Below are positions 16,071 through 57,943 of a stretch of 64,000 bases of DNA, in pieces. Location of the stretch: the NCBI GenBank assembly GCA_019358945.1, contig JAHHIE010000026.1, positions 23,627 through 87,626 on the forward strand, written 5' to 3'. The position numbers and the translations under genes were made by a program. The DNA is from Stenomitos rutilans HA7619-LM2 (GTDB lineage: Bacteria; Cyanobacteriota; Cyanobacteriia; Leptolyngbyales; Leptolyngbyaceae). Below the pieces are notes generated by a model, which saw nothing but the letters and a program-made list of their open reading frames with translations, ran no database searches and was not told where the DNA came from. Positions within the stretch are counted from its first letter, which is position 1; every line of letters starts with the position of its first letter.

Positions 16071-16201
16071 TTAGGGGTTTTCATCAATGACTCACACACA
16101 TCGCTTTCAGCAAGGGTTCCAGCCCTCAACCTTGTTTTTTAAAACGGGCGCGGTAAGGCTAATACTCAAGGCTTCTAAGCTTAATTGATGACGTGCCCTA
16201 G
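16071..16201 (+). mobile_element. MITE-like element, family A, copy 1
   Basis: This non-coding element of 131 bp has imperfect terminal inverted repeats: TTAGGGGTTTTCATCAA at the left, and TTGATGACGTGCCCTAG at the right, whose complement is CTAGGGCACGTCATCAA. Similar copies lie at 33455-33575 and 41307-41436, sharing internal blocks such as ACGGGCGCGGTAAGGCT. Its right end contains the stop codon of the minus-strand gene 16198-17682. Confidence 0.8.
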
Positions 16202-17682
16202 CGTTTGTCAGGCGCTGCTTTAGCAAACTCCACTCCAAACAGTTTTTTCAGCACCACGATCGGATCGGTTTGGGGAAGACTCATATCCACAAAGAGGCTA
16301 TGAGCAAGCTGTAGCTGTGCGGCACTGTATTGGCGCTGGTTCTGAGCTTGAGACACGGCTAGTCCTAAATCATGAAACCAGCGCACTAAGACAGGTAGCG
16401 AGTTTTCAAACGCAACAGACCCGCGATCGCTAGAAAATCTCAGAATACGACGTTTGAAGTGTGCATTCATCAAAGTGTGGGTTGTGCCATCCTGCACCAA
16501 TTCCCAACGCGATTGCGGCATTGCTTTCTCGCTCCAAGCAGCCCACAGGCGCATTCGCTTTAAAGTTGCGTCTGAGTCCTGGCGTTTCGACAGGTAGAAG
16601 GTAACCCATCGCGTTGTGGGCAGCTCAAGAACACGTCGGGGCGTTTGAGCCGTTACAGCGTCAAGCTGGCTCAATGTGGGTTGAACGTCACTCCAGACCT
16701 GAGCTGCGATCGCGCCTGGATTAAACTCATCTAAAAGCGCGGCTGCATGACCAGGCAGCGAAGGAAGGCTGAGATCAGTCAGTGACTGAGAAGAGTCAAT
16801 TAATCGGTTGGCTGGCAGGGGTTCCAGAAGGGGCGATGGCTCAATGAGCGATGGCTCAAGGGACGATTGTTCAAGGGACGATGGCTGTACTGCAATCTCT
16901 GGCAGCAGCAGCGGCGTTACGTCCCAACGATAACGATCGAGCCTTCCCCCTTCATGCATACAGCTTGGGAAGGGATACGTTTGTTTTGCGATCGGTTGAT
17001 ACGTTTTAGGGTCAAGATATTCTAGATGTAATTGAATCGCTGGCGTATCATGCTGCTGTTTGTCAAAGGTGTAGCTGGGTGGTGGTGGTTCCAGGCAAAG
17101 CAACCGTACCACTTGATGAACGGCTGGGTTCGTGCAGTCCTGCAACTGAAAAACATTATGAGGCGGCTTAAACACCATCCGCCCGTCAAGATCTAAAAAG
17201 TAATCGAGCGTACACCCTTGAGGAACATAAAAAAGAGTCCCAATATAGCGATCGAGCTTAGGTTTTCGCCGTCTTAAATAGACGTAATACTGAGTTGGCT
17301 CTTCTAGCCCCCGGTCTTGGTAGCTATAGTCTTTTTTGAGCAGGAGGCGCGTATTGTGCTGCTCAGCCGCGATGCCTCGACGGTGGCGATCGCCAATCTC
17401 CCGCAACCCAAATTCTAAAACCGTTTGGATCTGGTCAGCTTCAAGCTGAGTCAGCAAACGGCGGATCAATGCAATTTTTGCTTTTGTTTTTAGCTGGCTC
17501 ACATGGTCAAAAATGCCATCGGCATCTGCTAACTCGCCCGTTAGCGGATTGTTGGCTTCAGCAAGCACGCCTTGCCCGAACGGCATCGTTACCGCTTGTA
17601 CATCTTGTGCTTGTACATCTTGTGGAGGGGCTGATTGCACATATCCCTCATCAACTGCTGCAACAGGAACATCACGACTCAT
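16198..17682 (-). CDS. Unrecognised 494-aa protein
   Basis: I do not recognise a family. The predicted protein is soluble and appears to have two globular parts. About 60-245 contains ADQIQTVLEFGLREIGDRH and TQYYVYLRRRKPKLDRYIG; about 350-494 contains TRWVTFYLSKRQDSDATLK and ENSLPVLVRWFHDLGLAVS. A low-complexity Ser/Leu/Pro/Glu linker with tandem SSLEPS-like units joins them. The YYVYLRRRKPKLDRYIGTL block is reminiscent of short DNA-associated modules in plasmid or phage proteins, but I would not assign a function. The stop codon TAG lies inside the terminal repeat of the adjacent MITE-like element. Confidence 0.7.
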   Translation of the reverse strand: MSRDVPVAAVDEGYVQSAPPQDVQAQDVQAVTMPFGQGVLAEANNPLTGELADADGIFDHVSQLKTKAKIALIRRLLTQLEADQIQTVLEFGLREIGDRHRRGIAAEQHNTRLLLKKDYSYQDRGLEEPTQYYVYLRRRKPKLDRYIGTLFYVPQGCTLDYFLDLDGRMVFKPPHNVFQLQDCTNPAVHQVVRLLCLEPPPPSYTFDKQQHDTPAIQLHLEYLDPKTYQPIAKQTYPFPSCMHEGGRLDRYRWDVTPLLLPEIAVQPSSLEQSSLEPSLIEPSPLLEPLPANRLIDSSQSLTDLSLPSLPGHAAALLDEFNPGAIAAQVWSDVQPTLSQLDAVTAQTPRRVLELPTTRWVTFYLSKRQDSDATLKRMRLWAAWSEKAMPQSRWELVQDGTTHTLMNAHFKRRILRFSSDRGSVAFENSLPVLVRWFHDLGLAVSQAQNQRQYSAAQLQLAHSLFVDMSLPQTDPIVVLKKLFGVEFAKAAPDKR

Positions 17683-18370: not shown

Positions 18371-19927
18371 CTAATCAAGCAGGATGGTCTCGTAGCGATT
18401 CAAGGCCGCTTCAGTTTGTTTACGATCGGTAATATCCAGCAGTACGCCATCTAGCCAAAGCAAATTGCCGTTCTGGTCAAAAACGCCTTGCTTACGCTCG
18501 AAAACCCAGCGAACATAGCCGTTTGCGTGAATAATGCGATACTCGATCGAGCAACGGTGTCGGTCTAAAACCGATTGAACCAGTGAATCTTTAATGATGG
18601 CGATATCATCTGGATGAACAATGCTTAGAAAAGATTGCATTTGATTATTTACCAGAGCCAAGGCTGGATAACCAGTAATCGCTTCAATGCCATCGCTTAC
18701 AAATTCCATCGTGTAGGTTGAACTACAGCGGAAGACAGCGCCCGGAATGTTTAATACTAGCGATTTGAATCTTTCTTCACTGGCTTTTAACTCCACCTCC
18801 AAACATTTACGGTCGGTAATGGCGTATCCACTTAAAACGACACCATCGACTCTTAAAGCAGAGGGAAACGATTGCCCTTGCAGAGAAAGAGCTACCCACC
18901 GACCTGCCTTGGTGCGCCACCAGCACTCAATCTCTGGTTGATGGGGCTGAACGCCGCTGCTCCAGAGTTGCAAGAGTAGCTCAAATTCATTGAAATGGTT
19001 GGGATGGAGAAGCTCTGTGATGTGCCGTCCTAATAATTCCGTTTCGCTATAGCCTAAGAGACGTTCAACGGCAGCGCTCACATAAACAATTTGTCCCGTG
19101 TGACTCGTTTGAATAAACAAATAAGGACTATTGAAGACAAATGCCTTCCATTTTTCCTCCGTTCTGACAAGCGCATTGTAAACGTTGCGGCTCTCCGTTA
19201 TATCCTCTATCAGAACCATAAAGCAGTGTTGCTGTTCATCGGTACAGCCACTCACATTTGTTAGAGAAACTTGGCTTTTTGTCCAGATAATTTCGTTGCT
19301 CCGAGTAATAAAGCGCTTTTCGACTGTATAAGAAGGAATGGCACCATTCAATAACTTTTGCTTCAGGTCTGCATCAATTAAGCGATCGTCAGGGCAAACA
19401 AAATCCTCTAAAAAGATTGTTTCATCTCTATCTGTTTTTAGGAGTTCATGCAGCCGCCAATTACACTTAACAATGACTCCCTCTTGACTGACGAGTGCAC
19501 TTGCCAGACTAGGATGATCAAAAACGGTCAGCGATCGCTCAGTTGCGTCTACACATTTGGTCATGGCTGCTTCTGACTCGACTCTTTCGGCCGTGAAGAA
19601 CATTGACGTTGCTTCTGCCTGAAATTTTAGGGAACATTCAAGCATCTTCTGGCCGTCTCTGGTTTTAGCCATGAAATCAACCGTTTTTCCCTGTAAAGCT
19701 AGCTCCCAAAGCGATTCTAAAACGGCCTTTGGTGTCAGCTCTGACTGAAAATAAAGGAAAAAATCAATGTCTTCTGTAGTCGCTTGTAGCAACGTTAGAA
19801 AGCTTTGACTGGCGTATAATGGCTGCCCGCGATCGCTATAGATACAAAGGGGACCCAGCGATCGTTCGAGAAACTCTAATGATCCATGAGACTGAATCCC
19901 AGGAAGATTCCAGAGAGTAGAAACCAT
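18371..19927 (-). CDS. PAS/PAC sensory protein without an output domain
   Basis: The 518-residue protein consists of about four PAS-type modules. A divergent N-terminal PAS-like region covers about 20-110. A second at about 130-255 ends in MVLIEDITESRN. A third at 260-390 has KAFVFNSPYLFIQTS, YSETELLGRHITELLHP and a PAC segment GYAITDRKCLE. A fourth at 390-515 has VLNIPGAVFRCS and ends DGVLLDITDRKQTEAALNR. It stops at the linker helix that normally leads into a histidine kinase or GGDEF domain. No membrane helix is present. It may act as a stand-alone sensor, or be a truncated sensor kinase. Confidence 0.85.
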   Translation of the reverse strand: MVSTLWNLPGIQSHGSLEFLERSLGPLCIYSDRGQPLYASQSFLTLLQATTEDIDFFLYFQSELTPKAVLESLWELALQGKTVDFMAKTRDGQKMLECSLKFQAEATSMFFTAERVESEAAMTKCVDATERSLTVFDHPSLASALVSQEGVIVKCNWRLHELLKTDRDETIFLEDFVCPDDRLIDADLKQKLLNGAIPSYTVEKRFITRSNEIIWTKSQVSLTNVSGCTDEQQHCFMVLIEDITESRNVYNALVRTEEKWKAFVFNSPYLFIQTSHTGQIVYVSAAVERLLGYSETELLGRHITELLHPNHFNEFELLLQLWSSGVQPHQPEIECWWRTKAGRWVALSLQGQSFPSALRVDGVVLSGYAITDRKCLEVELKASEERFKSLVLNIPGAVFRCSSTYTMEFVSDGIEAITGYPALALVNNQMQSFLSIVHPDDIAIIKDSLVQSVLDRHRCSIEYRIIHANGYVRWVFERKQGVFDQNGNLLWLDGVLLDITDRKQTEAALNRYETILLD

Positions 19928-20132: not shown

Positions 20133-20399
20133 ATGCATCACTTGGGTCAGTTCATTTTGCTTTCAGCACTGAGCCAGTTCATTTTGCTTTCAGCACTGAG
20201 CCAGTTCATTTTGCTTTCAGCAAAAATTCGTGATTACTTCCGTTTTGTTCGATGCACCCATACAGGGTTGGCAGATGTGATTCTAGCTCAGCATGCTATT
20301 TTAGCAGCAGTTGTGAGCAACATTCCTGAACTAGCAATTGCTTTTTCAGCCGTAGCTTTTGTTTACCAGATGACAACTCGCTTTTCGCACCCATCTTAA
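20133..20399 (+). CDS. Doubtful small protein containing a 9-residue tandem repeat
   Basis: The 88-residue frame starts with ATG 20133 and is largely hydrophobic. Three SQFILLSAL-type units are encoded by the 27-bp DNA repeat, followed by two possible membrane segments. I find no good ribosome binding site. Past its stop the same frame continues open with protein-like sequence (LIGAALRRLGMMMDSGYYA), so it may be part of a decayed gene. Confidence 0.25.
   Translation: MHHLGQFILLSALSQFILLSALSQFILLSAKIRDYFRFVRCTHTGLADVILAQHAILAAVVSNIPELAIAFSAVAFVYQMTTRFSHPS
20148..20222. repeat. 27-bp tandem repeat, about 2.8 copies
   Basis: The unit starting CAGTTCATTTTGCTTTCAGC and ending ACTGAGC is repeated without mismatch at 20148-20174 and 20175-20201 and partially from 20202. 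Confidence 0.9.
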
Positions 20400-21327: not shown

Positions 21328-23259
21328 ATGATTGGGCAACTATTGACAGGACGTTATCTCATTCTAGAGAAGCTGGGTGGCGGGGGGTTTAGCGAAACCT
21401 ACCTGGCTCGTGATAAATACCTTCCCCACCATCCTCTGTGTGTTGTCAAATCACTTCAACTATCAGATAGCAGCACCCTTTCACCAGAAACGGCGTTGCA
21501 GTTATTTGAAACTGAAGCAAAGCTTTTGGAGCAGCTAGGGCAACACCACGCTCAAATTCCAACGCTCCTGGCTTATAGTCACGAGCAGGAGCAGGCGTAT
21601 TTAATTCAGGAGTACATTGAGGGTGAAAGCTTACGCCATTGGCTGACCCGTCAGCAGCGTCTAACCATAGAAGCGGCGGTCAAGCTATTGTCAGAAATGC
21701 TGTCGATTTTGACTTACCTCCATTCGCGTCGCATTGCCCACTGCGATATCAAACCCAGCAATATCATTCGCCGTAAGCGGGATGGCAAGTTAGTGCTGAT
21801 TGACTTTGGGGCGGCCTGCCAGGTGCCTGAAACGCCTTCTGGCCCTTCTACATCATCTGTAACAAATGAACTTCAAATGGCGATCGGCACGCCAGATTAC
21901 ATGCCCGATGAACAAAAGCTGGGTTATACCCAATTGAATAGCGATCTCTACGCATTAGGGATTCTGGTCATTCACCTCTTGACAGGCATTTTGCCGCGAC
22001 AATTTCAGCGCGATCTAATTTCGGGACAACTGGACTGGCAAACCCATTTGGCCGATTCCACTCCTAATCCTCGTTTGATTGCGCTTTTAAATCGTATGGT
22101 GCAGAGCGATTTTCGCGATCGCTACCAGCAAGCAACGGATGTGTTGGCAGATCTTCAAGCCTTACCCATGACCAAACGATTTCAATCGCCGAGGGTAAGA
22201 GGCTTGCAAGGACTGGTGCCTAAAGTGGCGTTCCCCGCGATGGCAGGCATTTTACTGGGTGCAGTTGGCATCCAATATGGTCACACTCAAAGTCAATTGC
22301 CTGAATTATGGCTGAATCAGTTAGAACAGCGGTTTCATCCGTCGCCTGTGCAGTTAACCATGATGCATGATGTCTCCGTGCAGGCTGGGGTCGATCGGAT
22401 GGTGATTGCACCGAATAATCGCATCCTGGTGACAGCCGGGTCAGACCACGCGCTCCGTTTATGGTCATTGCCCACAGGCACTCTGTTCAACACATTAATG
22501 AAGCATGGGGCTACGATTACAGCCTTAAACATCAGCCAGAATAGCAAGCTGTTAGTAAGTGGTCGTGAAGATGGCTCGATCGATCTGTGGGATCTCTCTA
22601 CTGGAAGGCTTCTACGGTCTTTTGCAGGCCATCGACAGCCTGTCATGGCTGTGGCGATTAGCCCTGATGGGAGTACGGTGGTCAGCGGTTGCAAAGAGGG
22701 TAAAATTCGTCGCTGGGATGCCCAAACAGGGGTGCGGTTGCAAACGATGCAACTTCTGCGGGGTGGGGTGACTGCACTAACCTATGATGAAACCTCCGAT
22801 CGTTTAATCAGCGCTAGCAGCGACAGCGCACGTGCAGATGCATCAGCCCGCCAGATTCAGGTATGGGATCTTAACTCTAGCAAGCTAGTCCGCACCTTTG
22901 TGGGCCATACCGCAACCATTGATGGATTGCAGGTAGCAGGCGACCACATGCTGTTCAGCGTTGGTAAAGACCGGGGCTTAATGTGGGATCTCAAACGCGA
23001 AGAACTCGTCACTGTGTTCCCTCAGGACTCTGCTGATGCGATCGCGACATCATTTAACGAGCAAAACATTGTGACCGTCCATGACAACGGCAGCATCCGC
23101 GTTTGGATGCGTAAAGCAGGTCGGCTCGTGCAACGAGAGACGGGTGCGTTAGGGCGCAATTTGGACGTGGCGCTAAGCCCTAACCATCGCTATTTGGTGA
23201 GCTGGAGTGCTGATCGACGGCTGCGTGTCTGGCAGCTCAATGCCAGCAATATCCAATAA
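21328..23259 (+). CDS. Ser/Thr protein kinase with C-terminal WD40 propeller
   Basis: This 643-residue Hanks-type kinase has the glycine loop LGGGGFSETYLA, ATP-binding Lys41 (VVKSL), catalytic loop HCDIKPSN (138-145), DFG at 159-161 and a GTPDYMPDEQ activation segment. The usual HRD arginine is Cys, a variant (non-RD) form. A hydrophobic segment near 290-310 probably anchors it in the membrane. About 340-640 form seven WD40-type repeats (TAGSDHALRLWSL, SGREDGSIDLWDL, SGCKEGKIRRWDA, SWSADRRLRVWQL) that would lie on the other side of that segment. It is followed after 85 bases by the Fe-S membrane protein gene, and next by an FHA-containing reductase, a potential phosphotarget reader. Confidence 0.92.
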   Translation: MIGQLLTGRYLILEKLGGGGFSETYLARDKYLPHHPLCVVKSLQLSDSSTLSPETALQLFETEAKLLEQLGQHHAQIPTLLAYSHEQEQAYLIQEYIEGESLRHWLTRQQRLTIEAAVKLLSEMLSILTYLHSRRIAHCDIKPSNIIRRKRDGKLVLIDFGAACQVPETPSGPSTSSVTNELQMAIGTPDYMPDEQKLGYTQLNSDLYALGILVIHLLTGILPRQFQRDLISGQLDWQTHLADSTPNPRLIALLNRMVQSDFRDRYQQATDVLADLQALPMTKRFQSPRVRGLQGLVPKVAFPAMAGILLGAVGIQYGHTQSQLPELWLNQLEQRFHPSPVQLTMMHDVSVQAGVDRMVIAPNNRILVTAGSDHALRLWSLPTGTLFNTLMKHGATITALNISQNSKLLVSGREDGSIDLWDLSTGRLLRSFAGHRQPVMAVAISPDGSTVVSGCKEGKIRRWDAQTGVRLQTMQLLRGGVTALTYDETSDRLISASSDSARADASARQIQVWDLNSSKLVRTFVGHTATIDGLQVAGDHMLFSVGKDRGLMWDLKREELVTVFPQDSADAIATSFNEQNIVTVHDNGSIRVWMRKAGRLVQRETGALGRNLDVALSPNHRYLVSWSADRRLRVWQLNASNIQ

Positions 23260-23344
23260 GGCCAAAGCGCTAAAACTGGGCAGACGGACGTTCACTTTTC
23301 ACGGCTCATTTAGCCACTCATGATTTCAACACAAGGTAAAACGT

Positions 23345-25075
23345 ATGCTGCACAACGTTTCTGAAACTACGATGCACCGTGTCCGCTGGCTCTTAACCAT
23401 CGGCTGGCTGCTGTTAATCGCTTCGTTTTTCTACGATCCGATTACGCCGATGTTTACATCACCAGAGGCCGTGGGAAGTCCCTTTCGGCTGCATCCAGAA
23501 ATTTATTTAGACCCGACGAAGTGTACCAAAATTCGAGAGGCTTGCTTGCCAGAACAGCCCTTTTCCATGAGCGCCATTATGTGGTGGGCGATGATTGTCC
23601 CGGCTGGTATTTTCATCCTGCTCGTGCTTGGGCATGAGTTTTGGCGGCGGATTTGCCCCCTCTCTTTTATGTCGCAAATTCCGCGTGCTTTGGGGTTACA
23701 GCGTAAGCGAAAGGTGGTTGACCCCCTTACAGGTGAAATACGTTGGGACGTTGTGGTAATTGGTGAAAAATCCTGGCTGGGACGCAATCATCTGTATCTG
23801 CAGTTTGGCTTGTTTGTGGTGGGTTTGTGGCTGCGTATCCTCTTTGTGAATTCCGATCGCGTGGCGCTAGGCAGCTTTTTGCTCTTTAGCATTTCCTGCT
23901 CGATGTTGGTGGGATTCCTCTATGCCGGGAAAAGCTGGTGCCAATATTTCTGCCCGATGGCGATCGTTCAGACCGTTTACACAGGCCCACGATCGTTGCT
24001 GGGAAGCCAAAACCATTTGCAGCCCAAAGCCGCTGTCACCCAATCCATGTGTCGCATGGTTGACCCCAAAACGGGCAAAGAACAGAGTGCTTGTGTGAGT
24101 TGCAAATCTCCCTGTATTGATATTGATGCTGAAAAAACGTACTGGGCTGAACTGAATAAACCGGGTCGTCGCCTGGTACAGTACGGCTATCTGGGCATGG
24201 TGATTGCTTTCTACCTGTACTACTACCTCTACGCAGGCAACTGGGATTATTACTTCACTGGGGCATGGACGCATGAAGAAGATCAGCTTGCCAAAATCAT
24301 GGATACAGGCTTCTACATTTATGGTCACACCATTCCCATTCCCAAAATAGCAGCGGTGTTGATCACGTATTTTGTGCTGGTTACCATCACTTACACGATC
24401 GGAATCATTGTCGAGAAGCTATGCCGTCGCTTAACCTTCCGCAAACGCCCTATATCGGCTGAGCAGGCGCAGCATATTGCATTCACCTTGTTTACGATCG
24501 TCTCATTCTGGACATTTTTCTCCTACGGAGCGCGTCCATCGTTGAATCGCCTGCCTTACTGGCCGCTGCTTGCATTCAATGCGCTGATTGTTTTAGTGGG
24601 TTCTCTGTGGCTCTACCGCACCATCAAACGTACCCATGCTCAATATGAGCGCGAGCACATGGCAAATAGTCTACGAAAGCAACTGCACAAGCTTGAGCTT
24701 AATCCATCATTGCTAGAAGGTCGATCGATCGATGAGTTAACTCCAGACGAAATCTACACGCTGGTAAAAGTGTTGCAGGGTTTCTCTCAACAGCTACGGC
24801 TACAAACCTATACCGGGGTTGTGCTGGATTCACTCCAGCAGCAGGCAACTGATACATCAAGCAGTTTTGAATTTTGTCGCAAGCTTCGACAAGATCTGCA
24901 ACTGACAGATGCCGACCATTTTGCGGCGCTAGAAGCGATCGCAGTCACCCATCCTCAAATTTTCACGGCGGCGGGTGCTCAACCTGTTTCCACTCAAATT
25001 CATGATGAGGACACGATGGCTAGAACGATTGCCCGATCGTTCAAAAAACCGACTGCCAAACGCGTCCGCAGTTAA
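23345..25075 (+). CDS. NapH/NosR/CcoG-like polytopic Fe-S membrane protein
   Basis: The 576-residue protein has about eight hydrophobic segments (near 15-32, 78-97, 152-170, 175-195, 278-298, 337-358, 385-405, 412-430). Its cysteine motifs are typical of polyferredoxin membrane proteins: RRICP (Cys104), WCQYFCPM (Cys199, Cys203) and a possible [4Fe-4S] site Cys236-x13-Cys250-x2-Cys253-x3-Cys257 (CVSCKSPC). NapH/NosR/CcoG proteins pass electrons through or along the membrane. The last 140 residues are soluble and helical with no known domain. ATG 23345 is used; a weak AAGG lies before it. The next gene encodes a flavin/[2Fe-2S] reductase, a natural electron donor. Confidence 0.85.
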   Translation: MLHNVSETTMHRVRWLLTIGWLLLIASFFYDPITPMFTSPEAVGSPFRLHPEIYLDPTKCTKIREACLPEQPFSMSAIMWWAMIVPAGIFILLVLGHEFWRRICPLSFMSQIPRALGLQRKRKVVDPLTGEIRWDVVVIGEKSWLGRNHLYLQFGLFVVGLWLRILFVNSDRVALGSFLLFSISCSMLVGFLYAGKSWCQYFCPMAIVQTVYTGPRSLLGSQNHLQPKAAVTQSMCRMVDPKTGKEQSACVSCKSPCIDIDAEKTYWAELNKPGRRLVQYGYLGMVIAFYLYYYLYAGNWDYYFTGAWTHEEDQLAKIMDTGFYIYGHTIPIPKIAAVLITYFVLVTITYTIGIIVEKLCRRLTFRKRPISAEQAQHIAFTLFTIVSFWTFFSYGARPSLNRLPYWPLLAFNALIVLVGSLWLYRTIKRTHAQYEREHMANSLRKQLHKLELNPSLLEGRSIDELTPDEIYTLVKVLQGFSQQLRLQTYTGVVLDSLQQQATDTSSSFEFCRKLRQDLQLTDADHFAALEAIAVTHPQIFTAAGAQPVSTQIHDEDTMARTIARSFKKPTAKRVRS

Positions 25076-25138
25076 TGGTTTATGGGTGCCTCTCTACGCT
25101 TGCCATCGCATGAGAGATACCCTGCATTGGCTGTGAAT

Positions 25139-25272
25139 AGGACTTACGCAAATTCTCTAAAACCAGCCCCCAGCCCCCAATTTATAGCCCTAGCGGGCAT
25201 ACAAGAAAGGGGGAGCAAGAACTCAGAGTCCCCCAGAGTTGGGAGATTTAAGGGGGCGGATGCGTAAGTCCT
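25139..25272. mobile_element. MITE-like element, family B, copy 1
   Basis: This 134-bp element is bounded by perfect 12-bp inverted repeats, AGGACTTACGCA and TGCGTAAGTCCT. The interior contains blocks shared with copies 2 and 3 (53701-53813, 57676-57828), such as CAGCCCCCAATT and AAGAAAGGGGGAGC. It encodes nothing convincing. Confidence 0.85.
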
Positions 25273-25290
25273 GTAAATAAGATTCACATC

Positions 25291-25378
25291 AAGCCTTCAG
25301 CGGTCAGTCAACCTTTCGGGACGTAAACGATAGCCTCTTACCGATCGCTGACCGCTAACTGCTGACCGCTGACTGCAA
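25291..25378. repeat. GCTGACC/GGTCAGC heptamer cluster in inverted arrangement
   Basis: AGCGGTCAGTC on the left faces four GCTGACC/GCTAACT-type heptamers on the right, so transcripts could fold into a hairpin. It belongs to the heptamer family found throughout the window. Confidence 0.6.
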
Positions 25379-25522
25379 AAGCAATGTTTCCCACGGCTCA
25401 AACAGCATTGCCACAGCTCACCACAGTACCCATCACCGCTGAGTGCGAATAGCGCTAGAGCGGCAATAGCGTTCCCCCCACGCGAATCGCCCTACACTCT
25501 TTGCTAAGGAATCTACACGCCT

Positions 25523-27103
25523 ATGTTGACCTTAAAGTCAATTAACTTCGAGCAACAGCAATTTCAAATCCATCAATTGCAGCAATCCCATCCTGAAAAG
25601 ATGGAATGGTTGATTGGACGCAGTACCGCTTGTGATCTGGTGTTACCCAATCCAGAGGTTAGCCGGGTACATGGCAGAATTATCTACCTGGACGATGCCT
25701 ATTATTTTACGGATATGGGTAGCAGCTTTGGATCATCGCTCAATGGCAAAAGCATCGCTGCGAATGAACAGCATGAACTGCACTTAGCTGATATTCTGCA
25801 ATTGGGAGAAACCTTTTTGTATGTGGAAGGGATTACGGCCCCTTCGCCCCTTTCATCAACAGCAGCCTTAGAAACTTATGCCTCCGTTTTGCTGCCGGAA
25901 GCAACCTGGGCGGGCGAAGACTTGCTGTGTCGTTGCTGCCGCATTATTGATGAAACGCCAGATGCCAGGACGTTTTGTTTCGTTGCCGATCCTCCAGTGC
26001 TGTTCGACTATAAGCCAGGGCAGTTTGTCAATCTGGCGATCGACGTTGATGACAAGCCTGTCATTCGCTCTTATTCCATTTCATCCTCGCCCACACGCCC
26101 CCATCACCTCAGTCTCACTATTAAGCGAGTGCCTGCGCCCTCAGATCAACCCGATGCCCCTGCTGGTCTTGTTTCCAACTGGATGCATGACCATTTGCAG
26201 GTGGGCGATCGCGTCCAGTTCATTGGTGGCGCGTTAGGGCACTTCACCTGTCTGCCCAACTTACCACCCAAGCTGCTGCTCATTTCGGCTGGTAGTGGCA
26301 TCACGCCCATGATGTCGATGACACGATGGGTACAGGATACGCTGGCAGACTGTGACATTATCTTTTTGCACAGCGCTCGTACACCAGAAGACATCATCTT
26401 TCGTACCGAACTAGAAATGATCGCGGCTCAGATGCCTAACTTCCATCTCGCCATCACTTTGACCCAGAAGCCACTGCAACACGCCTGGATGGGCTTGACT
26501 GGGCGGATTTCTACCTCAATGCTGCACATGATTGCTCCGGATCTCATGGAGCGATCGGTGTTTGTCTGCGGCCCAGAAGGATTTATGGAGGGCACGCGAT
26601 CGCTCCTGGAAACCATGAAATTCCCCATGCAGAACTACCAGGAAGAAAGCTTTGGTCGCAGCAAAAAAGCCAAGCCTGCCCCACGAGAAGCTGCCGCTAC
26701 CGTTTGGCGAATCGAATCAGAAACAGCGATCGCCCGCAATGGCAATGGTAATGGCAATGGACATCAAACAAAAACACTCTCTCCCACAAAGCTTGCCCCA
26801 GCAAAGTCCGCTCCTGCCAAACCTGCACCCGCTCAGACTGCCCCAATGGTGCACTTCCTCAAAGCCGAGCGACAGCTTCCAGTTGATGATACGGCCTCTA
26901 TTCTGGAATTAGCAGAGCAAGAAGGTATTCAAATTCGTCATGCCTGCCGTGTAGGTGCATGTGGTGCCTGCAAAGTGCATGTCCGCCAGGGAAACGTCCG
27001 TTACGATACACCCCCCTCTGCGCTCAGTGCTGCTGACAAACAAGCTGGCTATGCTTTAGCGTGTGTGGCTTATCCTCAAGGTGCTTTAGCGATCGACGCT
27101 TAG
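25523..27103 (+). CDS. FHA domain - flavin/NAD reductase - [2Fe-2S] ferredoxin fusion
   Basis: This 526-residue protein joins three functions. Residues about 8-100 are an FHA domain (GRS 32-34, SRVH 47-50, DMGSSFGSSLNG 64-75) that binds phosphothreonine. About 130-370 are a ferredoxin-reductase module: FAD site RSYSISSSP (182-190), NAD-binding SAGSGITPMM (255-264), and VCGPEGF (348-354). After a Gly/Asn then Lys/Ala/Pro-rich linker (403-440), residues 441-526 are a plant-type [2Fe-2S] ferredoxin with Cys475, Cys480, Cys483 and Cys514. The reductase-ferredoxin part resembles oxygenase or Hcr-type reductases. It follows the Ser/Thr kinase and the Fe-S membrane protein on the same strand. Confidence 0.9.
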   Translation: MLTLKSINFEQQQFQIHQLQQSHPEKMEWLIGRSTACDLVLPNPEVSRVHGRIIYLDDAYYFTDMGSSFGSSLNGKSIAANEQHELHLADILQLGETFLYVEGITAPSPLSSTAALETYASVLLPEATWAGEDLLCRCCRIIDETPDARTFCFVADPPVLFDYKPGQFVNLAIDVDDKPVIRSYSISSSPTRPHHLSLTIKRVPAPSDQPDAPAGLVSNWMHDHLQVGDRVQFIGGALGHFTCLPNLPPKLLLISAGSGITPMMSMTRWVQDTLADCDIIFLHSARTPEDIIFRTELEMIAAQMPNFHLAITLTQKPLQHAWMGLTGRISTSMLHMIAPDLMERSVFVCGPEGFMEGTRSLLETMKFPMQNYQEESFGRSKKAKPAPREAAATVWRIESETAIARNGNGNGNGHQTKTLSPTKLAPAKSAPAKPAPAQTAPMVHFLKAERQLPVDDTASILELAEQEGIQIRHACRVGACGACKVHVRQGNVRYDTPPSALSAADKQAGYALACVAYPQGALAIDA

Positions 27104-27303: not shown

Positions 27304-29196
27304 GTGAAAATTCTTCTGGTAGAAGATGATGAGCCAGTTGCTGCCATGCTGGTAGACGTGCTGACAGCCCAGCACTATACCGTTGATGTTGCAGCGGATG
27401 GTGAACTTGGGCTGGAATTAGCGATCAACTGGGACTATGAGCTGATTTTGCTCGATTTGCAGATTCCAAAGCTGGATGGCATTCGCCTTTGCCGTAAAAT
27501 CCGAGCACAAGGATTTCAAAAACCTATTCTTTTATTAACGGCCAAAGATTCTAGTGAAGATGTGGTAAGGGGTCTGGATGCAGGGGCCGATGACTATGTG
27601 ACGAAGCCCTACAATTTGTCTGAATTGCTTGCCCGGTTGCGGGCGTTGCTCCGACGGCGCGAGACGAGTTTGGCACCACTGGTGCTGACGTGGGAAAAGC
27701 TGCGAGTGAATCTCTATGCGGCAGACGTCACATATGCGGAAGAACCACTTGCGCTCACGCCCAAAGAATACAGTTTGTTGAGCTTGTTTTTACGCAATCC
27801 TCAGAGGGCCTTTAGCCGCAGCGATATTCTCGATCGCCTCTGGTCGATCGATGCGTCGCCCAGTGAAGGTACGGTGACCAATCTCATCAAAGATTTGCGG
27901 CAAAAGCTGAAAGCGGCTGGGATGACGGCAGCTTTGCTGGAAACGGTTTACGGGTTAGGTTACCGCTTGAAAGCCCCACCCCAAACCCGCTCGATCGCCG
28001 AAGGGTCAGACGCTTCACCCCCAACAATGACTACTGTCCTATCACGGTCTGAGCAAACGTCGGATTTTGACAAGCAACTGATGTCGATCAACAAGGTGTT
28101 GCAGCGGTATCAAAAGACGTTTGTCGATCGGGTAGCATTACTGGAGCAGGTTGAAATGTCCTTGCAACAGGGCACCTTAAGCCAGGACTTACAGCTAGAA
28201 GCCGTTCAGGAAGCGCACCGCTTGGCCGGAACTTTAGGCTCTTTTGGCTATGGTACGGGGTCGCAATTGGCACGAACGATCGAGCAATTGTTGCACACGG
28301 AGCTAGCACCCGCTGATCGCCCGTCCCTTACCAATCTGATTGCAGCGCTCAAGCAAGAGCTAGCAGGCCCACCGACCCCATTTAGTGTGCATGATGTTCA
28401 GCCCAGGACAACGCACCTGGTTCTGACCATTGATGAAGAGACCACCTTTACCCAACAATTGGAAGCAGCGGCCTCGGCGTGGAACATTCATCTTGAAGTT
28501 GCGCCTCAGATTGAAATGGTTCAGGTTGTGCTGGCTAAGGTTAAGCCCGATGCTATTTTGCTGACGCTCAATCCCCATCAGGTAGAAGCAGCGTTGGGAT
28601 TGTTGCAGACCTTGAGGATACAACTGCCAGCCGTACCGATTTTAGTGATGACGGAACACGATCGCCTGGTCGATCGCGTCACTGTTTCTCGTCTGGGTGT
28701 CCGGCGCTTTTTGCACAAAGCTGTGGGCACGACCCAGATTGTTGAAGCGCTGCTGCAACTACTACCCAGGGTTGCTACCTCTGATGCCAGGGTACTGCTC
28801 GTCGATGATGACCCCCTCATGCTGGAGGGCTTGCAACATCACCTGCAACCCTGGGGTCTGGATGTGATTAGCCTGCAAGATTCGAGTCAATTTTGGGATG
28901 TACTTACCGTCACCAAGCCCGACTTACTGGTGTTAGATCTGGAAATGCCCACGTTTGATGGAATTGACCTGTGCCGCGTGGTACGTCAGGATCTCCAGTG
29001 GGGCAATTTGCCCATCTTAGTGGTTACAGCTCATACCGATATGACTTCCATTCAGCAGGTTTTTGCGGCAGGTGCTGACGATTTTATTGGTAAGCCAGTT
29101 GTAGGGCCAGAACTGGTCACGCGCGTGATTAGCCGCCTCGATCGCGTTCGCTTGCAGCACGAACTGGAAACCATGAAGCGGAGCATTGGCGCATGA
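27304..29196 (+). CDS. Multidomain response regulator: REC - OmpR DNA-binding - HPt - REC-like - REC
   Basis: The 630-residue protein starts at GTG 27304. A receiver domain at 1-120 has phosphoacceptor Asp51, DD at 8-9 and Lys in VTKP. A winged-helix domain at about 130-225 (EEPLALTPKEYSLL, TVYGLGYRL) is of OmpR type. About 255-345 is an HPt domain with the motif EAHRLAGTLGSFGYG. About 365-480 is a degenerate receiver (VLTIDEETTF) lacking the Asp. About 488-615 is a second canonical receiver (LLVDDDPLM, DLEMPTFDG, GKP). It thus combines DNA binding with phosphorelay parts. Its stop overlaps the start of the histidine kinase gene (ATGA), showing translational coupling. Confidence 0.92.
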   Translation: MKILLVEDDEPVAAMLVDVLTAQHYTVDVAADGELGLELAINWDYELILLDLQIPKLDGIRLCRKIRAQGFQKPILLLTAKDSSEDVVRGLDAGADDYVTKPYNLSELLARLRALLRRRETSLAPLVLTWEKLRVNLYAADVTYAEEPLALTPKEYSLLSLFLRNPQRAFSRSDILDRLWSIDASPSEGTVTNLIKDLRQKLKAAGMTAALLETVYGLGYRLKAPPQTRSIAEGSDASPPTMTTVLSRSEQTSDFDKQLMSINKVLQRYQKTFVDRVALLEQVEMSLQQGTLSQDLQLEAVQEAHRLAGTLGSFGYGTGSQLARTIEQLLHTELAPADRPSLTNLIAALKQELAGPPTPFSVHDVQPRTTHLVLTIDEETTFTQQLEAAASAWNIHLEVAPQIEMVQVVLAKVKPDAILLTLNPHQVEAALGLLQTLRIQLPAVPILVMTEHDRLVDRVTVSRLGVRRFLHKAVGTTQIVEALLQLLPRVATSDARVLLVDDDPLMLEGLQHHLQPWGLDVISLQDSSQFWDVLTVTKPDLLVLDLEMPTFDGIDLCRVVRQDLQWGNLPILVVTAHTDMTSIQQVFAAGADDFIGKPVVGPELVTRVISRLDRVRLQHELETMKRSIGA

Positions 29197-32100
29197 TTCC
29201 ACTGCGGCGATTAGACTGGCCTACGTTGCAGAAGCAAAAGCGCGATCGACAGACGGCCATTCCCTTGCGGTGGGTGCTGGTTGTGCCCTTTGTGCTGCTG
29301 GTTGTGGGCACCGTTGGACTGGTCGAGTATCTGTATCTTCGGAACGAGCAACAGTTGGTGCAAGACTTTGCAGGCAGATTGATGGAAGAGGTAAGCAATC
29401 GCGTGGCGCTTTATCTCAACAATTATCTTGAAACGCCGCAGCAGATTAACCGAGTGAATGCCAGCCTAATTCAATTTGAGGATAGCGATCGCAGGAACCC
29501 AAGCCAGTTACAACGTCGCTTTTTGCACCAGATTCAAGCGTTCAGCTCTGTAAACCGGATTCATTTCACCAATCCTCAGGGCGGCTATGTCTCTGTGGGC
29601 AGCGATCAACGGGGCCTTACCGTGGCAGCGACCGATCGCTTCGTCAAAGGAACACTCAGAGTCTACAGCATCGATCGTGCGGGCACATGGACAAGCCTGT
29701 TGCTCACGCGACACCCTTACGATGCCACAACCCGTCCTTTTTATCGACGAGCTGCCGAAACAGGCAAACCCACATGGGCACCGATCTACGCCTATGTACC
29801 ATCATTTCAAGGCTTGGGGCTTGCTGCCACCTACCCCCTCTATGACAAAAACCGTCAATTACAAGGGGTTTTAGCAAGCGATCTGTCGTTGGTCTCAATC
29901 ACACAGTATTTGAGAAAGCTGAGCATTGGGACGCATGGAATGGCGTTCATCATGGAGCGATCGGGGCTACTGGTCGCCTCTTCAACCACTGAAGATGCCT
30001 TTGTGACAAACACCGATCGCACGCGTTATCGCCGTCTGCAAGCGTTTGACAGCCAGGAACCGCTGATCCACTTAGCGGCAAGGCACCTGGTCTCTCGCTA
30101 CGGCACCTTAGATCACATTACAGCCCCTACCCAGCTTCACGTTGAAACAGAGGGCAGGCGGCAATTTCTTCAGGTGACACCCGTGCGCGATCGCCTGGGG
30201 TTAGATTGGCTGCTGGTCGTGACTATACCAGAAGCAGATTTTACGGAGCAAATGGATGCGAATACACACCTGGCGATTTTGTTCAGCCTGGGTGCCCTGG
30301 TTAGCGCGATCGCGTTGGGTCTTGTGACAGCCCAGAGGATTGTGCAGCCAATCCAGCGGTTGAGTTGGGCTAGCCGCGCACTGGCGCAGGGAGACTGGCA
30401 TGAAACCCTCCAGGAAGATAGTGCGATCGCCGAATTGCAGGGCCTCACACGCTCTTTTAACCAGACGGCTGCACAGTTACAGCGCTCTTTTGATCACGTT
30501 AAAACCGCACTGCAAGCCTCAGAAGAACGCTTTGCCAAAGTGTTTCGCGCCAGCCCCGATCCGATCGCGATCGCCACTCCTGACGGGCGTTACCTGGACG
30601 TAAACGATGCCTTTATCAGCTTATTTGGTTATCCACGGGATGCATTGGTGGGTCGCACCGCGGCAGAGGTCGGTTTGTGGTCTAACCTGGCTGACCGAGA
30701 ACACGCCATGCAGCGAGTGTTGGCAGGTGAACGGGTGCGCAATCTCGAAGTGACCTTTCAAAACCACCTGGGTCAGCAACTCACGGCGCTGTACTCAGCC
30801 GAAAGCATGGACATTCAGGGGCAGCAGTGCATTATTGCCATTGCCAAAGAAATTACCGATCGCAAGCAATTGGAATTGGCGCTGCAACAATCGGAAGCGA
30901 AGCTCAATGATATTTTAAGCAGTGCCATCACCTCGATTTGTTGTTATCGCCTCCATCCAGACGGGCAGCTAGCATACGAATATTTTTCGCCCAGCAACAC
31001 GATCGTGTTTGGCTACACCCCAGAGGAACTGTGTGCTGATCCAGCGCTGTGGCGATCACGAGTGCATCCAGCCGATCGCAATCAAGCGCTGGGGGTCATA
31101 CCACCAACGTTTGCCGAAGGTTTCATCACCACAGAATACCGGTTTCGCCACAAAGATGGAACCCAACGGTGGATTCTCGATCATCTAACCTTTTGCCCCC
31201 ATCAGGATGAGGGCTGGATTGTCACCGCTGTGGCGATCGACAACACCGATCGCAAGCGCGTTGAAGCGGCCCTGCGCCACAGTGAAGCGGCACTCCGTCG
31301 TGCTCAGCAGGTGGCTCACGTGGGCAGTTGGGAACTAGATGTTGCCACAGAAAACGTCGTCTGGTCAGAAGAAAGCTTCCACATTTTTGGCTGGGATGTC
31401 ACGCAGCCAGAACCAACGCTTGCTCAATTTATGGCGTTGCTTCATCCCGACGATCGCTACTCCCTGGAGCACAGTGTAAGGCACACGATCGCCACTGGAA
31501 TGCCTTACAGCACTGACTTTCGCGCGGTGCTACCCGATGGCACTATCCGTTATGTTGAGGCCAAAGGCGAAGCGATCGTCAACCAGTATGAGCAGGTGAC
31601 CCAACTCATTGGCACCAATCTTGATATTACAGACCGTACGCAAGCAGAACTGGCGCTCCGCCAAAGCGAAGCCATCAAAAATCAAATTCTTAAAGCCATT
31701 CCAGATTTAATCCTCTGGATGAAGGTAGACGGCACCTGTATTGATTTAATCGACAGCCCGACGATTAGCAGTTTGTTTGATAAAACAAAAGCCATTGGTA
31801 AAAACCTCTACGACTTCCTGCCCTCAGACCTCATACAGCCAAGGAGGAACGCCATTCAACAAGCGCTCAGCACGGGAGATGTCATCGTCTATGAGCATCA
31901 GATACACGTACAAGGGGGTATCAGATATGAAGAAGTGCGGGTTGTGAAGGTGGAGGACGATCGCATCTTAGTCATTGTGAGAGATGTAACCGATCGTAAA
32001 CGGGCAGAAGATGCCTTACGTCAGTACGAACGCATTGTTGCCGCTACCACCGATGGCATTTCACTGATTGATCGCAACTATATCTATCGTGCGATCAATC

Positions 32101-33440
32101 CTTCTTACCTCAGTCGCTTTAACAAAAAACACGATGATATTGTGGGACATTCCGTGGCGGAATTAATCGGTCAAGACATTTTTGAGGCCGTGATTAAAGA
32201 GCGTCTGGATGCCTGCTTTGCAGGACAAACCATTCAGTATGAAGACTGGTTTACCTTCCCAACAATGGGAACTCAGTTCATGGGTGTGACTTACGATCCA
32301 TATCTTGAATTGGATCAAACCATTTCTGGCGCAGTGGTTACGGTGCGCAACCTGACTGACCTGAAACAGGCAGAAGCCGCACTGCGCGACAGTGAAGCAC
32401 GCTTTCGCAGTGCCTTTCAGGATGCCCCTATTGGGATGGCATTAATTGCGTTGGGCGATCGCTGGCTGAAAGTGAATCCCATGCTCTGCGCCATGCTGGG
32501 CTACAGCGAAACCGAACTACTTTCAATGCAAGCTTCTGTTCTTGTGCATGCAGACGATCGCCAACGATTCCAGCAGTGTGCAGAGCAGGTCTTATCACAA
32601 CGCAACGATGCGGCTCAGGCTGAATTACGCTATCAGTGCAGTGGAGGACGCATAGCATGGGGGCGACAAAGTCTATCACTGGTGCGCGATGGCGAGAACT
32701 ACCCGCTTTACTACGTAGCACAGATTCAAGATGTCACAGAGCAGCAAGCGATTGACCAGATAAAGAATGAATTTATTGCCATCGTTAGCCATGAATTACG
32801 CACACCGCTAACGGCCATTAAAGGCTTTTTGGGCTTGCTCAACACAGGCATTTACGAGAGTAAGCCTGAAAAAGCAAAACGCATGGTTGAACTGGCTTTG
32901 TCCAACAGCGATCGTCTGGTGCGTCTGGTGAACGATATCCTGGATTTAGAACGGCTCTCTTCGGGGAAGGTGCCACTTGTCCTTGAAGCTTGTCAGGCGG
33001 AGGAGCTAGTGCAACAAGCTGTGGAGGGCGTACACTTGATCGCCGATGCAGCCCACGTCACGCTACTGGTTATCCCGGCTGCTATCAAACTTTGGGCGGC
33101 TCCTGATGCCATCATCCAAACTCTCACCAATTTGCTGAGTAACGCGATCAAATTTTCCCCTGCCCATGCCACCATCACGATCGCAACCAGCCTTCAGACG
33201 AATGCCGTGCTGTTTCAGGTCCAGGATCAGGGCAGGGGCATTCCCGCAGACAAATTAAAAACCATCTTTGGGCGCTTTCAGCAGGTCGATGTTTCAGATG
33301 CTCGACAACGAGGTGGTACTGGGCTGGGACTGGCAATTTGCCAGAGCATCATACAGCAGCATAACGGCAGCATCTGGGTTGAAAGCGAAGTCGGTCATGG
33401 CAGCACCTTCTATTTCACAGTACCCACGCCAGAAGCGTAA
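29193..33440 (+). CDS. Membrane histidine kinase: dCache - HAMP - multiple PAS - HisKA - HATPase
   Basis: The 1415-residue sensor kinase has a membrane helix at about 25-48 (VLVVPFVLLVVGTVGLVEYL), a periplasmic dCache-type sensor (about 50-350), a second helix at about 365-385, a HAMP region and six PAS/PAC modules (about 440-1180; PAC ends such as EITDRKQLE, AIDNTDRKRVE, LDITDRTQAE, VRDVTDRKRAE). The HisKA domain has His1200 in SHELRTP. The ATPase domain has N box NLLSNAIKFSP, G1 DQGRGIP and G2 GGTGLGLAI. It begins inside the stop codon of the upstream response regulator, which is its likely partner; two further receivers follow downstream. Confidence 0.93.
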   Translation: MIPLRRLDWPTLQKQKRDRQTAIPLRWVLVVPFVLLVVGTVGLVEYLYLRNEQQLVQDFAGRLMEEVSNRVALYLNNYLETPQQINRVNASLIQFEDSDRRNPSQLQRRFLHQIQAFSSVNRIHFTNPQGGYVSVGSDQRGLTVAATDRFVKGTLRVYSIDRAGTWTSLLLTRHPYDATTRPFYRRAAETGKPTWAPIYAYVPSFQGLGLAATYPLYDKNRQLQGVLASDLSLVSITQYLRKLSIGTHGMAFIMERSGLLVASSTTEDAFVTNTDRTRYRRLQAFDSQEPLIHLAARHLVSRYGTLDHITAPTQLHVETEGRRQFLQVTPVRDRLGLDWLLVVTIPEADFTEQMDANTHLAILFSLGALVSAIALGLVTAQRIVQPIQRLSWASRALAQGDWHETLQEDSAIAELQGLTRSFNQTAAQLQRSFDHVKTALQASEERFAKVFRASPDPIAIATPDGRYLDVNDAFISLFGYPRDALVGRTAAEVGLWSNLADREHAMQRVLAGERVRNLEVTFQNHLGQQLTALYSAESMDIQGQQCIIAIAKEITDRKQLELALQQSEAKLNDILSSAITSICCYRLHPDGQLAYEYFSPSNTIVFGYTPEELCADPALWRSRVHPADRNQALGVIPPTFAEGFITTEYRFRHKDGTQRWILDHLTFCPHQDEGWIVTAVAIDNTDRKRVEAALRHSEAALRRAQQVAHVGSWELDVATENVVWSEESFHIFGWDVTQPEPTLAQFMALLHPDDRYSLEHSVRHTIATGMPYSTDFRAVLPDGTIRYVEAKGEAIVNQYEQVTQLIGTNLDITDRTQAELALRQSEAIKNQILKAIPDLILWMKVDGTCIDLIDSPTISSLFDKTKAIGKNLYDFLPSDLIQPRRNAIQQALSTGDVIVYEHQIHVQGGIRYEEVRVVKVEDDRILVIVRDVTDRKRAEDALRQYERIVAATTDGISLIDRNYIYRAINPSYLSRFNKKHDDIVGHSVAELIGQDIFEAVIKERLDACFAGQTIQYEDWFTFPTMGTQFMGVTYDPYLELDQTISGAVVTVRNLTDLKQAEAALRDSEARFRSAFQDAPIGMALIALGDRWLKVNPMLCAMLGYSETELLSMQASVLVHADDRQRFQQCAEQVLSQRNDAAQAELRYQCSGGRIAWGRQSLSLVRDGENYPLYYVAQIQDVTEQQAIDQIKNEFIAIVSHELRTPLTAIKGFLGLLNTGIYESKPEKAKRMVELALSNSDRLVRLVNDILDLERLSSGKVPLVLEACQAEELVQQAVEGVHLIADAAHVTLLVIPAAIKLWAAPDAIIQTLTNLLSNAIKFSPAHATITIATSLQTNAVLFQVQDQGRGIPADKLKTIFGRFQQVDVSDARQRGGTGLGLAICQSIIQQHNGSIWVESEVGHGSTFYFTVPTPEA

Positions 33441-53700: not shown

Positions 53701-53813
53701 AGGATTTACGCAAGAGCGGTCATCTTTCGCCCTCCTAGCCCCTAATTCTGAGAGAACCGAGCCAATTAAAGCCCCGAAGGATCGAGGATTTGGGGACCAA
53801 ATGCGTAAGTCCT
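53701..53813. mobile_element. MITE-like element, family B, copy 2
   Basis: This 113-bp element has ends AGGATTTACGCA and TGCGTAAGTCCT (one mismatch). The interior block AGAGCGGTCATCTTTCGCC is shared with copy 3 at 57676-57828. It lies just past the ntcA stop codon. Confidence 0.85.
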
Positions 53814-57481: not shown

Positions 57482-57943
57482 AGAGCAAGCTGGCTTCGCT
57501 GTAATGGGTCACTTTAGTCCAGATGCCCGTTCTGTTAAATTAAGAATGTCCGTTGCTAGCCATCACACAGTAACTGGCATCGCTGAACTAGCTGCTTGTA
57601 CTTTAGCGACCCGTGTTTCTCCACGTCAAAAGACACTTGACCGAGTCTACGGCTCGATTGAGGGCATTATTTTTTAGGACTTACGCAAGAGTGGTCATCT
57701 TTCGCCTCCTAGCCCCCAATTCATAGCCCTTTGGGCATACCCTTTGGGAAGCAAGCTACAAGAAAGGGGGAGCCGGGCCAATTAAAGCCCCCAGCATTGG
57801 AGGTCGAGGGGCCAAATGCGTAAGCCCTATTTTTGTCAGAAGAGCCTTACCTGGAAATCAGCAGGTAGAGAATCTCTACCTTCAAGTGCTTCGGTGCCAC
57901 CAGGTTTTATACTTGGCATGGCTTTATTTGGTTGAAGGTCGTG
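57482..57943. other. Spacer with MITE copy 3
   Basis: This 460-base spacer is dominated by the family B element. No other gene or terminator is evident. Confidence 0.5.
57676..57828. mobile_element. MITE-like element, family B, copy 3
   Basis: This element of 153 bp has ends AGGACTTACGCA and TGCGTAAGCCCT (one mismatch). It shares AAGAAAGGGGGAGC with copy 1 and AGCCAATTAAAGCCCC-like sequence with copy 2. ATTTTT occurs immediately outside both ends and may be a target-site duplication, though T-rich context weakens this. Confidence 0.85.

Follow-up and report, generated by a model that had tools for sequence, protein, structure and literature searches.

This work concerns three genes that follow one another on the forward strand of a 64,000-nucleotide stretch of the cyanobacterium Stenomitos rutilans HA7619-LM2 (contig JAHHIE010000026.1, positions 23,627 to 87,626; hereafter the window). 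They encode a Hanks-type Ser/Thr kinase with a WD40 propeller (K), a polytopic membrane protein, likely of the iron-sulfur (Fe-S) type (M), and a fusion of an FHA domain, a flavin adenine dinucleotide (FAD)/NAD reductase and a plant-type [2Fe-2S] ferredoxin (F). Three families, invariant cofactor-type residues, a conserved gene order and a Thr-repeat tail on M are established here. M and F very probably act together, and we tentatively propose that the three genes form a conserved cyanobacterial unit working as a phosphorylation-gated electron-transfer switch, the whole chain of which would run from K through the tail of M to F. The interpretation put forward in the initial annotation of this DNA, which linked kinase, FHA domain and membrane protein, is partly supported; docking and gating are steps that we infer.

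A conserved row of three genes

The three open reading frames (ORFs) are present in the ORF list of the window, which bears out the coordinates and strand first assigned to them. In Leptolyngbyaceae and kin, K, M and F are consecutive on one strand, with median gaps of 98 bases (K-M) and 67 bases (M-F) over 23 loci. Among 42 genomes of the window's order, F was found in 23 and M in 32; M lies directly upstream of F, on the same strand, for 26 of the 27 F copies, and the contig of the 27th (G395:C88) has no M match. K lies upstream in 23 of these 26 M-F units, while in the three others M lies at a contig edge (G396), has a frame of 341 amino acids (aa) (G388) or contains in-frame stops (G395). 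K was found within 3 kb of none of the 25 M matches without F in the same genomes, fragments included (two pieces in G395:C338, partial matches in G423 and G405). This tally covers 24 K rows that were near full length or beside M, by eye no other K row being near these 25 matches; at most 29 candidates were scored per genome in the K search, and at most three in the searches of the phylum for M and F. Two K-M-F sets each were found in G402, G403 and G407, with K down to 35-38% identity. A conserved three-gene neighbourhood had been set beforehand as a test of the interpretation, and it was strongly passed in the window's own order.

Among 386 genomes of the phylum, F was found in 15 and M in 50, and all 15 genomes with F have M (a fragment in G278), a co-occurrence with a hypergeometric value of 6e-15 if the kinship of the genomes is ignored. 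The cut for F, at least 280 bits, was set after seeing the list, the next best genome scoring 102. According to match coordinates, M and F are side by side in 10 of these 15 genomes. The loci of M relatives, the best 80 of 281 by match to the window's M, came from named genomes and lean to Leptolyngbyaceae and kin and to Nostocales. Where both flanks reached 5 kb, a linked kinase was found in 24 of 24 M+F loci, as against 0 of 15 M-only loci, and in 24 of 25 when L152 is added; these tallies include locus duplicates (L089 and L119 are the window; L093/L151, L097/L124, L116/L150 and L067/L153 are partly identical) and count L068 as M+F, its F being on the opposite strand at a distance of about 7 kb. 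The host genome of 7.28 Mb has 35 Pkinase and 18 FHA matches; by our own arithmetic, about one gene in 20 should then have a kinase within 5 kb.

The spacer of about 450 bases between M and F, recognised at the outset as bearing a miniature inverted-repeat transposable element (MITE), indeed measures 447 bases in the window and holds a MITE-like element at 25139-25272, but the long spacer is local, because in the 23 related loci the gap, of which the median was given above, ranges from 2 to 332 bases (in L010 it was measured to the ORF start, not to the conserved ATG). The window's own genome also has a second M copy (C6:108218-109717, 47% identical), and no F match was found on that contig.

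The membrane protein and its C-terminal tail

M was aligned in 200 rows (194 distinct) and F in 169 (159 distinct), the P rows, which are the best 120 of 2113 and the best 120 of 2538, leaning to Leptolyngbyaceae and kin. Nine cysteines of M are invariant in 199-200 of the 200 rows, M copies without F included. The Fe-S-type cysteine set, C236-x13-C250-x2-C253-x3-C257, is likely one [4Fe-4S] site. The structure model (mean predicted local distance difference test score, pLDDT, of 79; below 50 in the cluster region, residues 229-238 and 245-259) and the charges flanking the helices suggest eight transmembrane helices, a cytoplasmic location for both CP motifs, the four-Cys set and the C-terminus, and an outer one for C60/C67.

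In the initial annotation, M had been likened to NapH and NosR. It indeed shares with NapH, NosR and RdhC a polytopic architecture, a CX3CP motif and Fe-S-type cysteines, and the NapH model matched 18 of 47 M weakly, but those proteins are defined with two CX3CP motifs (PMC5928378), whereas each of the 200 M rows has exactly one, the second CP motif being W-x3-C104-P105 (WRRICP in 199 of 200 rows). The second C-terminal [4Fe-4S] motif expected of NapH and NosR is likewise absent, C236, C250, C253 and C257 being the only conserved cysteines besides C60, C67 and those of the CP motifs, and the flavin mononucleotide (FMN)-binding motif of NosR and RdhC, [ST]G[AS]T.[ST], was found in 0 of 200 rows. 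The eight predicted helices, the outer C60/C67 pair and the long cytoplasmic C-terminal part set M further apart. Since it has a single CX3CP, a single four-Cys set and no FMN motif, M is not assigned to NapH, NosR or RdhC. In a Pfam scan, the window's M matched no family at E<=0.001; Fer4_5 (PF12801), which matches all 47 M members scanned at E<=1, gave it 15.9 bits for a cut-off of 22, a value passed by some relatives (e.g. L059 with 26.7 and L152 with 24.3 bits). The cupric reductases CcoG/RdxA/FixG (PMC8456105) may be related to M: the CcoG model (TIGR02745) gave weak matches to 32 of 47 M at E<=1 (best 3.8e-4) and none to the window's M, and M relatives differ from these reductases by FHA/cyclic-nucleotide-binding (cNMP) domains or Thr tails and, in part, by a dedicated FHA-reductase partner.

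The tail of M (residues 542-576) was modelled at pLDDT below 50, that is, as disordered. Short M proteins end, after a variable linker, in T557-phi-A-[KR]-T561-[IV]-A-[KR] (phi, hydrophobic); of 151 such proteins, 143 have Thr at 557 and 137 have it at 561. The repeat T[ILVM][AG][KR] occurs within the last 45 residues in 137 of the 151 (127 of 140 distinct tails), as against a mean of 3.1 in shuffled tails, and two or more repeats occur in 76 of 151, as against 0.015; this count takes in P rows as well and so covers short M irrespective of F adjacency. The same repeat is rare elsewhere (2 of 169 F linkers, three matches in 23 K proteins). Among complete M adjoining F, 47 of 53 carry a Thr tail (26) or an FHA domain of their own (21), compared with 8 of 27 M without F, L051 being placed among the latter as its F is broken into pieces; the partly duplicated loci named above enter this tally too. 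The Thr-repeat tail is a candidate kinase/FHA site, and it offers a concrete place where docking and gating could occur. At L035 (6154-7719), an F with a degenerate FHA domain (SGFN for SRxH) was seen beside an M without Thr tail.

The kinase and the FHA-reductase-ferredoxin fusion

The description of K as a kinase with WD40 repeats was confirmed by Pfam, with Pkinase at 121 bits (cut-off 31.7) and WD40 matches, and the catalytic-loop and DFG residues are visible in the sequence. Of 23 K homologues, 20 (all but L025, L026 and L030) have a hydrophobic helix (hydropathy >1.2) between kinase and propeller, and since this likely transmembrane helix separates the two parts, the WD40 part is probably outside the cytoplasm.

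All the parts first recognised in F were likewise recovered above their Pfam cut-offs, namely FHA (58.2 bits, cut-off 20.7), FAD_binding_6, NAD_binding_1 and Fer2 (59.5 bits, cut-off 21), the four ferredoxin cysteines being invariant in 38 of 38 aligned sequences. The reductase part has a fold like that of NqrF and phthalate dioxygenase reductase. The best NCBIfam models were GbcB (NF058606; 335.5 bits) and Hcr (188.6 bits), both under their curated cut-offs, and F was rejected as GbcB, for which 500 bits are required; the type VI secretion model Fha/TagH (TIGR03354) reached 50.9 bits for a cut-off of 120.25. NqrF, phthalate dioxygenase reductase, GbcB and Hcr resemble F in combining an FAD/NAD reductase with a [2Fe-2S] domain; what sets F apart is an FHA domain at the N-terminus and a disordered linker.

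The FHA domain of F keeps the canonical Arg/Ser/His pocket for phosphothreonine (GR...SxxH), with G32, R33 and S47 in 168 and H50 in 167 of 169 rows. Two residues before this serine (Ser-2; Glu45 in the window), Glu is found in 161 and Asp in 5 of 169 rows, while an acid stands there in none of the 14 other FHA domains read from the same genome (14 of 17 places were readable by pattern). We take Glu45 to be the equivalent of Arg83 in Rad53 FHA1, a match of positions that is our own. Because Arg83 of Rad53 FHA1 selects Asp at +3 (PMC4037201), an acid at Ser-2 fits a basic +3 residue, and Glu45 is predicted by this analogy to suit Lys or Arg at +3, as offered by the tail of M.

The coordinates of the features of the three genes, and of the element between M and F, are given in Table 1.

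Table 1. Features of the K-M-F row in the window (window coordinates).
Feature	Position	Strand	Basis
K: Hanks-type Ser/Thr kinase, one likely transmembrane helix, WD40 propeller, 643 aa	21328..23259	+	ORF and Pfam
K kinase domain, residues 12-269, HCDIKPSN and DFG in sequence	21361..22134	+	Pfam Pkinase, 121 bits
K likely transmembrane helix, residues ~296-315	22213..22272	+	Sequence reading and homologue hydropathy
K WD40 propeller, predicted extracytoplasmic	22378..23256	+	Pfam; topology from homologue hydropathy
M: polytopic, likely Fe-S type, 8 predicted transmembrane helices, 576 aa	23345..25075	+	ORF, alignment, structure model
M C60 and C67, invariant pair, predicted outer loop	23522..23545	+	Cys in 199/199 rows with a letter (of 200)
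M CX3CP motif, C199-C203-P204	23939..23956	+	200/200 rows
M C236, C250, C253, C257, likely one [4Fe-4S] site	24050..24115	+	200/200 rows; putative cluster
M tail T557-M-A-R-T561-I-A-R, candidate phospho-Thr repeat	25013..25036	+	Repeat counts; structure model
MITE-like element, AGGACTTACGCA inverted ends, M-F spacer	25139..25272	+	Pair of inverted ends
F: FHA-FAD/NAD reductase-[2Fe-2S] ferredoxin fusion, 526 aa	25523..27103	+	ORF and Pfam
F FHA domain, residues 28-95	25604..25807	+	Pfam FHA, 58.2 bits
F flavin/NAD(P)H reductase part, residues 145-359	25955..26599	+	Pfam; fold comparison
F plant-type [2Fe-2S] domain, residues 449-519, C475/C480/C483/C514	26867..27079	+	Pfam Fer2

The M-F pair in other lineages

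In Nostocales, M has about 1,100 residues with its own FHA domain and a cyclic-nucleotide domain (by Pfam in L056 and L036, by own profiles elsewhere), F lies next to it, and a CHASE2-Ser/Thr kinase is found instead of K, further on past F. M-F units also occur without a kinase found nearby, so that the M-F pair forms the core, to which two lineages have added a linked kinase. A SodC gene was found, after F, in 13 of 53 M+F loci, and in 0 of 60 M-only loci, most of the latter having short flanks; it was identified as Sod_Cu by Pfam in L043, with a lipoprotein-like signal seen by eye. This superoxide dismutase-like gene lies within about 1.1 kb after F in Nostocales (L036-L038, L040-L044, L048, L050, L052, L057 and L069), and DUF928-like proteins are encoded upstream of M in many Nostocales loci.

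Proposed mechanism

In the mechanism that we propose, the WD40 propeller of K would sense a signal outside the cytoplasm, and K would phosphorylate Thr557/Thr561, in the T-phi-A-[KR] repeats of the cytoplasmic M tail. The phosphorylated tail would be bound by the FHA domain of F, so that FAD reaches the membrane together with the tethered [2Fe-2S] domain, and electrons would pass from NAD(P)H through FAD and [2Fe-2S] to the four-Cys site of M, then to CX3CP and on to C60/C67 or a quinone, in or across the membrane; dephosphorylation would free F. In Nostocales, the M-F pair would be coupled by means of the CHASE2 kinase and the FHA (and cNMP) domains that M itself carries. Our preferred guess for the final acceptor is an extracytoplasmic one, such as a thiol, a metal ion or oxygen, because of the C60/C67 pair and the SodC lipoprotein gene near F in Nostocales. 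A bolder version, in which F would represent a new redox enzyme class whose FHA domain, of altered specificity and built into an NAD(P)H reductase-ferredoxin, reads phosphothreonine-phi-Ala-Lys/Arg repeats in the M tail, and a receptor kinase with an outside propeller would switch electron export through the membrane on and off, is rather unlikely to hold in full.

Evidence against the switch and alternative explanations

Several observations weigh against a phosphorylation-gated switch, starting with the FHA pocket. The motifs GRS, SRVH and NG had been cited for F, and a loss of the FHA binding residues in orthologues had been named as a refuting check. Arg, Ser and His are kept (167-168 of 169 rows), but the cited NG is N74-G75; the ligand-side Asn of the usual S/T-N-G is Phe69 in the window, just 2 of 169 F rows having Asn there, N-G being kept by 13 of 14 other FHA domains read from the same genome. 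This missing Asn is a real weakness, and binding may be weaker or altered. The Glu at Ser-2, moreover, is not tail-specific, since F of Nostocales keeps it though M there is without Thr tail. Five complete M beside F (L024, L029, L035, L097 and L152) carry neither tail, FHA nor cNMP domain, and the M beside F in L150 has cNMP alone. On the tree of M, kinase linkage takes three changes and F nine, so that the contrast of 24 of 24 with 0 of 15 loci rests on few independent events, and an independent-pairs test had too few pairs for significance. No kinase was found near M-F in L150, L152, L153 and L031 (one flank being under 5 kb in L150, L153 and L031), and in 5 of the 15 phylum genomes with F (G280, G105, G143, G346 and G296) F lies apart from M, with no kinase found within 14-15 kb around it. 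Some Nostocales kinases border a CHAT/ShlB cluster (L056, L043) and may belong there; CHAT was not found in the approximately 2 kb beyond the kinase in L036-L038 and L041. At L153 (4347-5357; identical in L067 and L121), finally, a Rieske-domain gene (53.8 bits) adjoins F in convergent orientation, which speaks for an oxygenase partner there.

The alternative that survives best is that M and F are a real redox pair, in which the FHA domain would dock constitutively, whatever the phosphorylation state, and K would regulate another target. The lost Asn, the existence of M-F pairs without linked kinase and the wider core that these two genes form, side by side in two thirds of the phylum genomes with F (10 of 15), are in line with it, but Arg33, Ser47 and His50 are nearly invariant, a Thr tail or an own FHA domain is present on 47 of 53 M beside F, and a kinase is linked in two lineages; we hold this explanation to be unlikely, though a serious competitor. 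F could also dock on autophosphorylated K (or on K and M), the kinase then acting as a scaffold in place of the M tail. K is the direct neighbour, and Hanks kinases commonly autophosphorylate, but it is M that carries the conserved Thr repeat, which K hardly has, and the search of M-F loci in other lineages turned up no kinase; we consider such a scaffold quite improbable. We give little credit to the proposal that F, like GbcB and Hcr, serves an oxygenase or some other soluble partner as its reductase and stands beside M through shared regulation only: the best NCBIfam models and the Rieske gene adjoining F in L153, L067 and L121 (one identical sequence) would favour it, but the GbcB score falls short of its cut-off, F was never found without M in a genome (15 of 15 of the phylum, 23 of 23 of the order), and the Rieske gene stands by F in that one locus only of 131 searched (L025 and the M-only L061 have weaker relatives at a distance). 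That the row is inherited synteny without functional link is very improbable, for although 14 of 19 K-M-F loci with at least 4 kb upstream of K retain a divergent PAS gene (counted by eye), so that part of the neighbourhood may be plain synteny, and although the independent events on the M tree are few, the gaps between the genes are short, K-M-F sets are duplicated in three genomes, K lies beside 0 of 25 M matches without F, and K-M-F stays in L024-L026, where the PAS gene and its 494-aa neighbour, described below, were not found.

Other features of the window

Divergent from K, two genes on the reverse strand encode a 518-aa PAS-only protein (18371-19927) and a 494-aa protein without Pfam family (16198-17682); each is a possible further member of the unit or plain synteny. 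Downstream of F (27304-33440, forward strand), a response regulator and a 1415-aa PAS/Cache histidine kinase are encoded, and among the related loci only L010 and L039 show these two-component genes at the corresponding position (L009 has a cut end there). Inverted AGGACTTACGCA-type ends, MITE-like, occur as three pairs in the window (25139-25272, 53701-53813 and 57676-57828), and a stretch of about 27 bases is read in near-identical head-to-tail copies at about 20140-20220.

Relation to known systems and significance

The system closest in logic to a phosphorylation-gated K-M-F switch appears to be PpkA-TssL-Fha of Agrobacterium type VI secretion, in which a kinase phosphorylates a Thr of a membrane protein that is then bound by an FHA protein (PMC3953482). 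The likeness, proposed for K-M-F from the Thr tail and the FHA domain as they stand in the sequence, lies in a Ser/Thr kinase, a membrane-protein Thr and an FHA reader. By contrast, the client of PpkA-TssL-Fha is a secretion machine, whereas here it would be a redox system, the FHA domain being fused to a flavin/ferredoxin reductase and the membrane protein being likely of the Fe-S type. Another comparison comes from Synechocystis, where the ferredoxin 5 gene lies in the slr0144-slr0152 operon. SpkG is encoded by the last gene of the same operon, and phosphorylation of ferredoxin 5 depends on it (PMC11863333). This pair resembles K-M-F in tying a cyanobacterial Ser/Thr kinase to a ferredoxin, but the passages on it show neither an FHA-reductase fusion nor M, and the term FHA does not occur in the main text of that 2025 review of cyanobacterial Ser/Thr phosphorylation (PMC11863333). 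The initial annotation knew of no described system with this layout, and the literature searched gave no account of one either, although a description in subscription papers is possible.

M is a family without functional name in what was searched, found in 50 of 386 sampled cyanobacterial genomes. If true, the phospho-dependent docking of an electron-transfer enzyme on a membrane protein would be a switch of electron flow that needs no new protein synthesis. For iron reduction by cyanobacteria, the alternative respiratory terminal oxidase (ARTO) or superoxide have been named as candidates (PMC7676907), and the electron export route of photosynthetic microbes was described as still to be determined (PMC5016757). 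In this context, K-M-F would provide a testable candidate, with named residues, for the outward passage of electrons in cyanobacteria.

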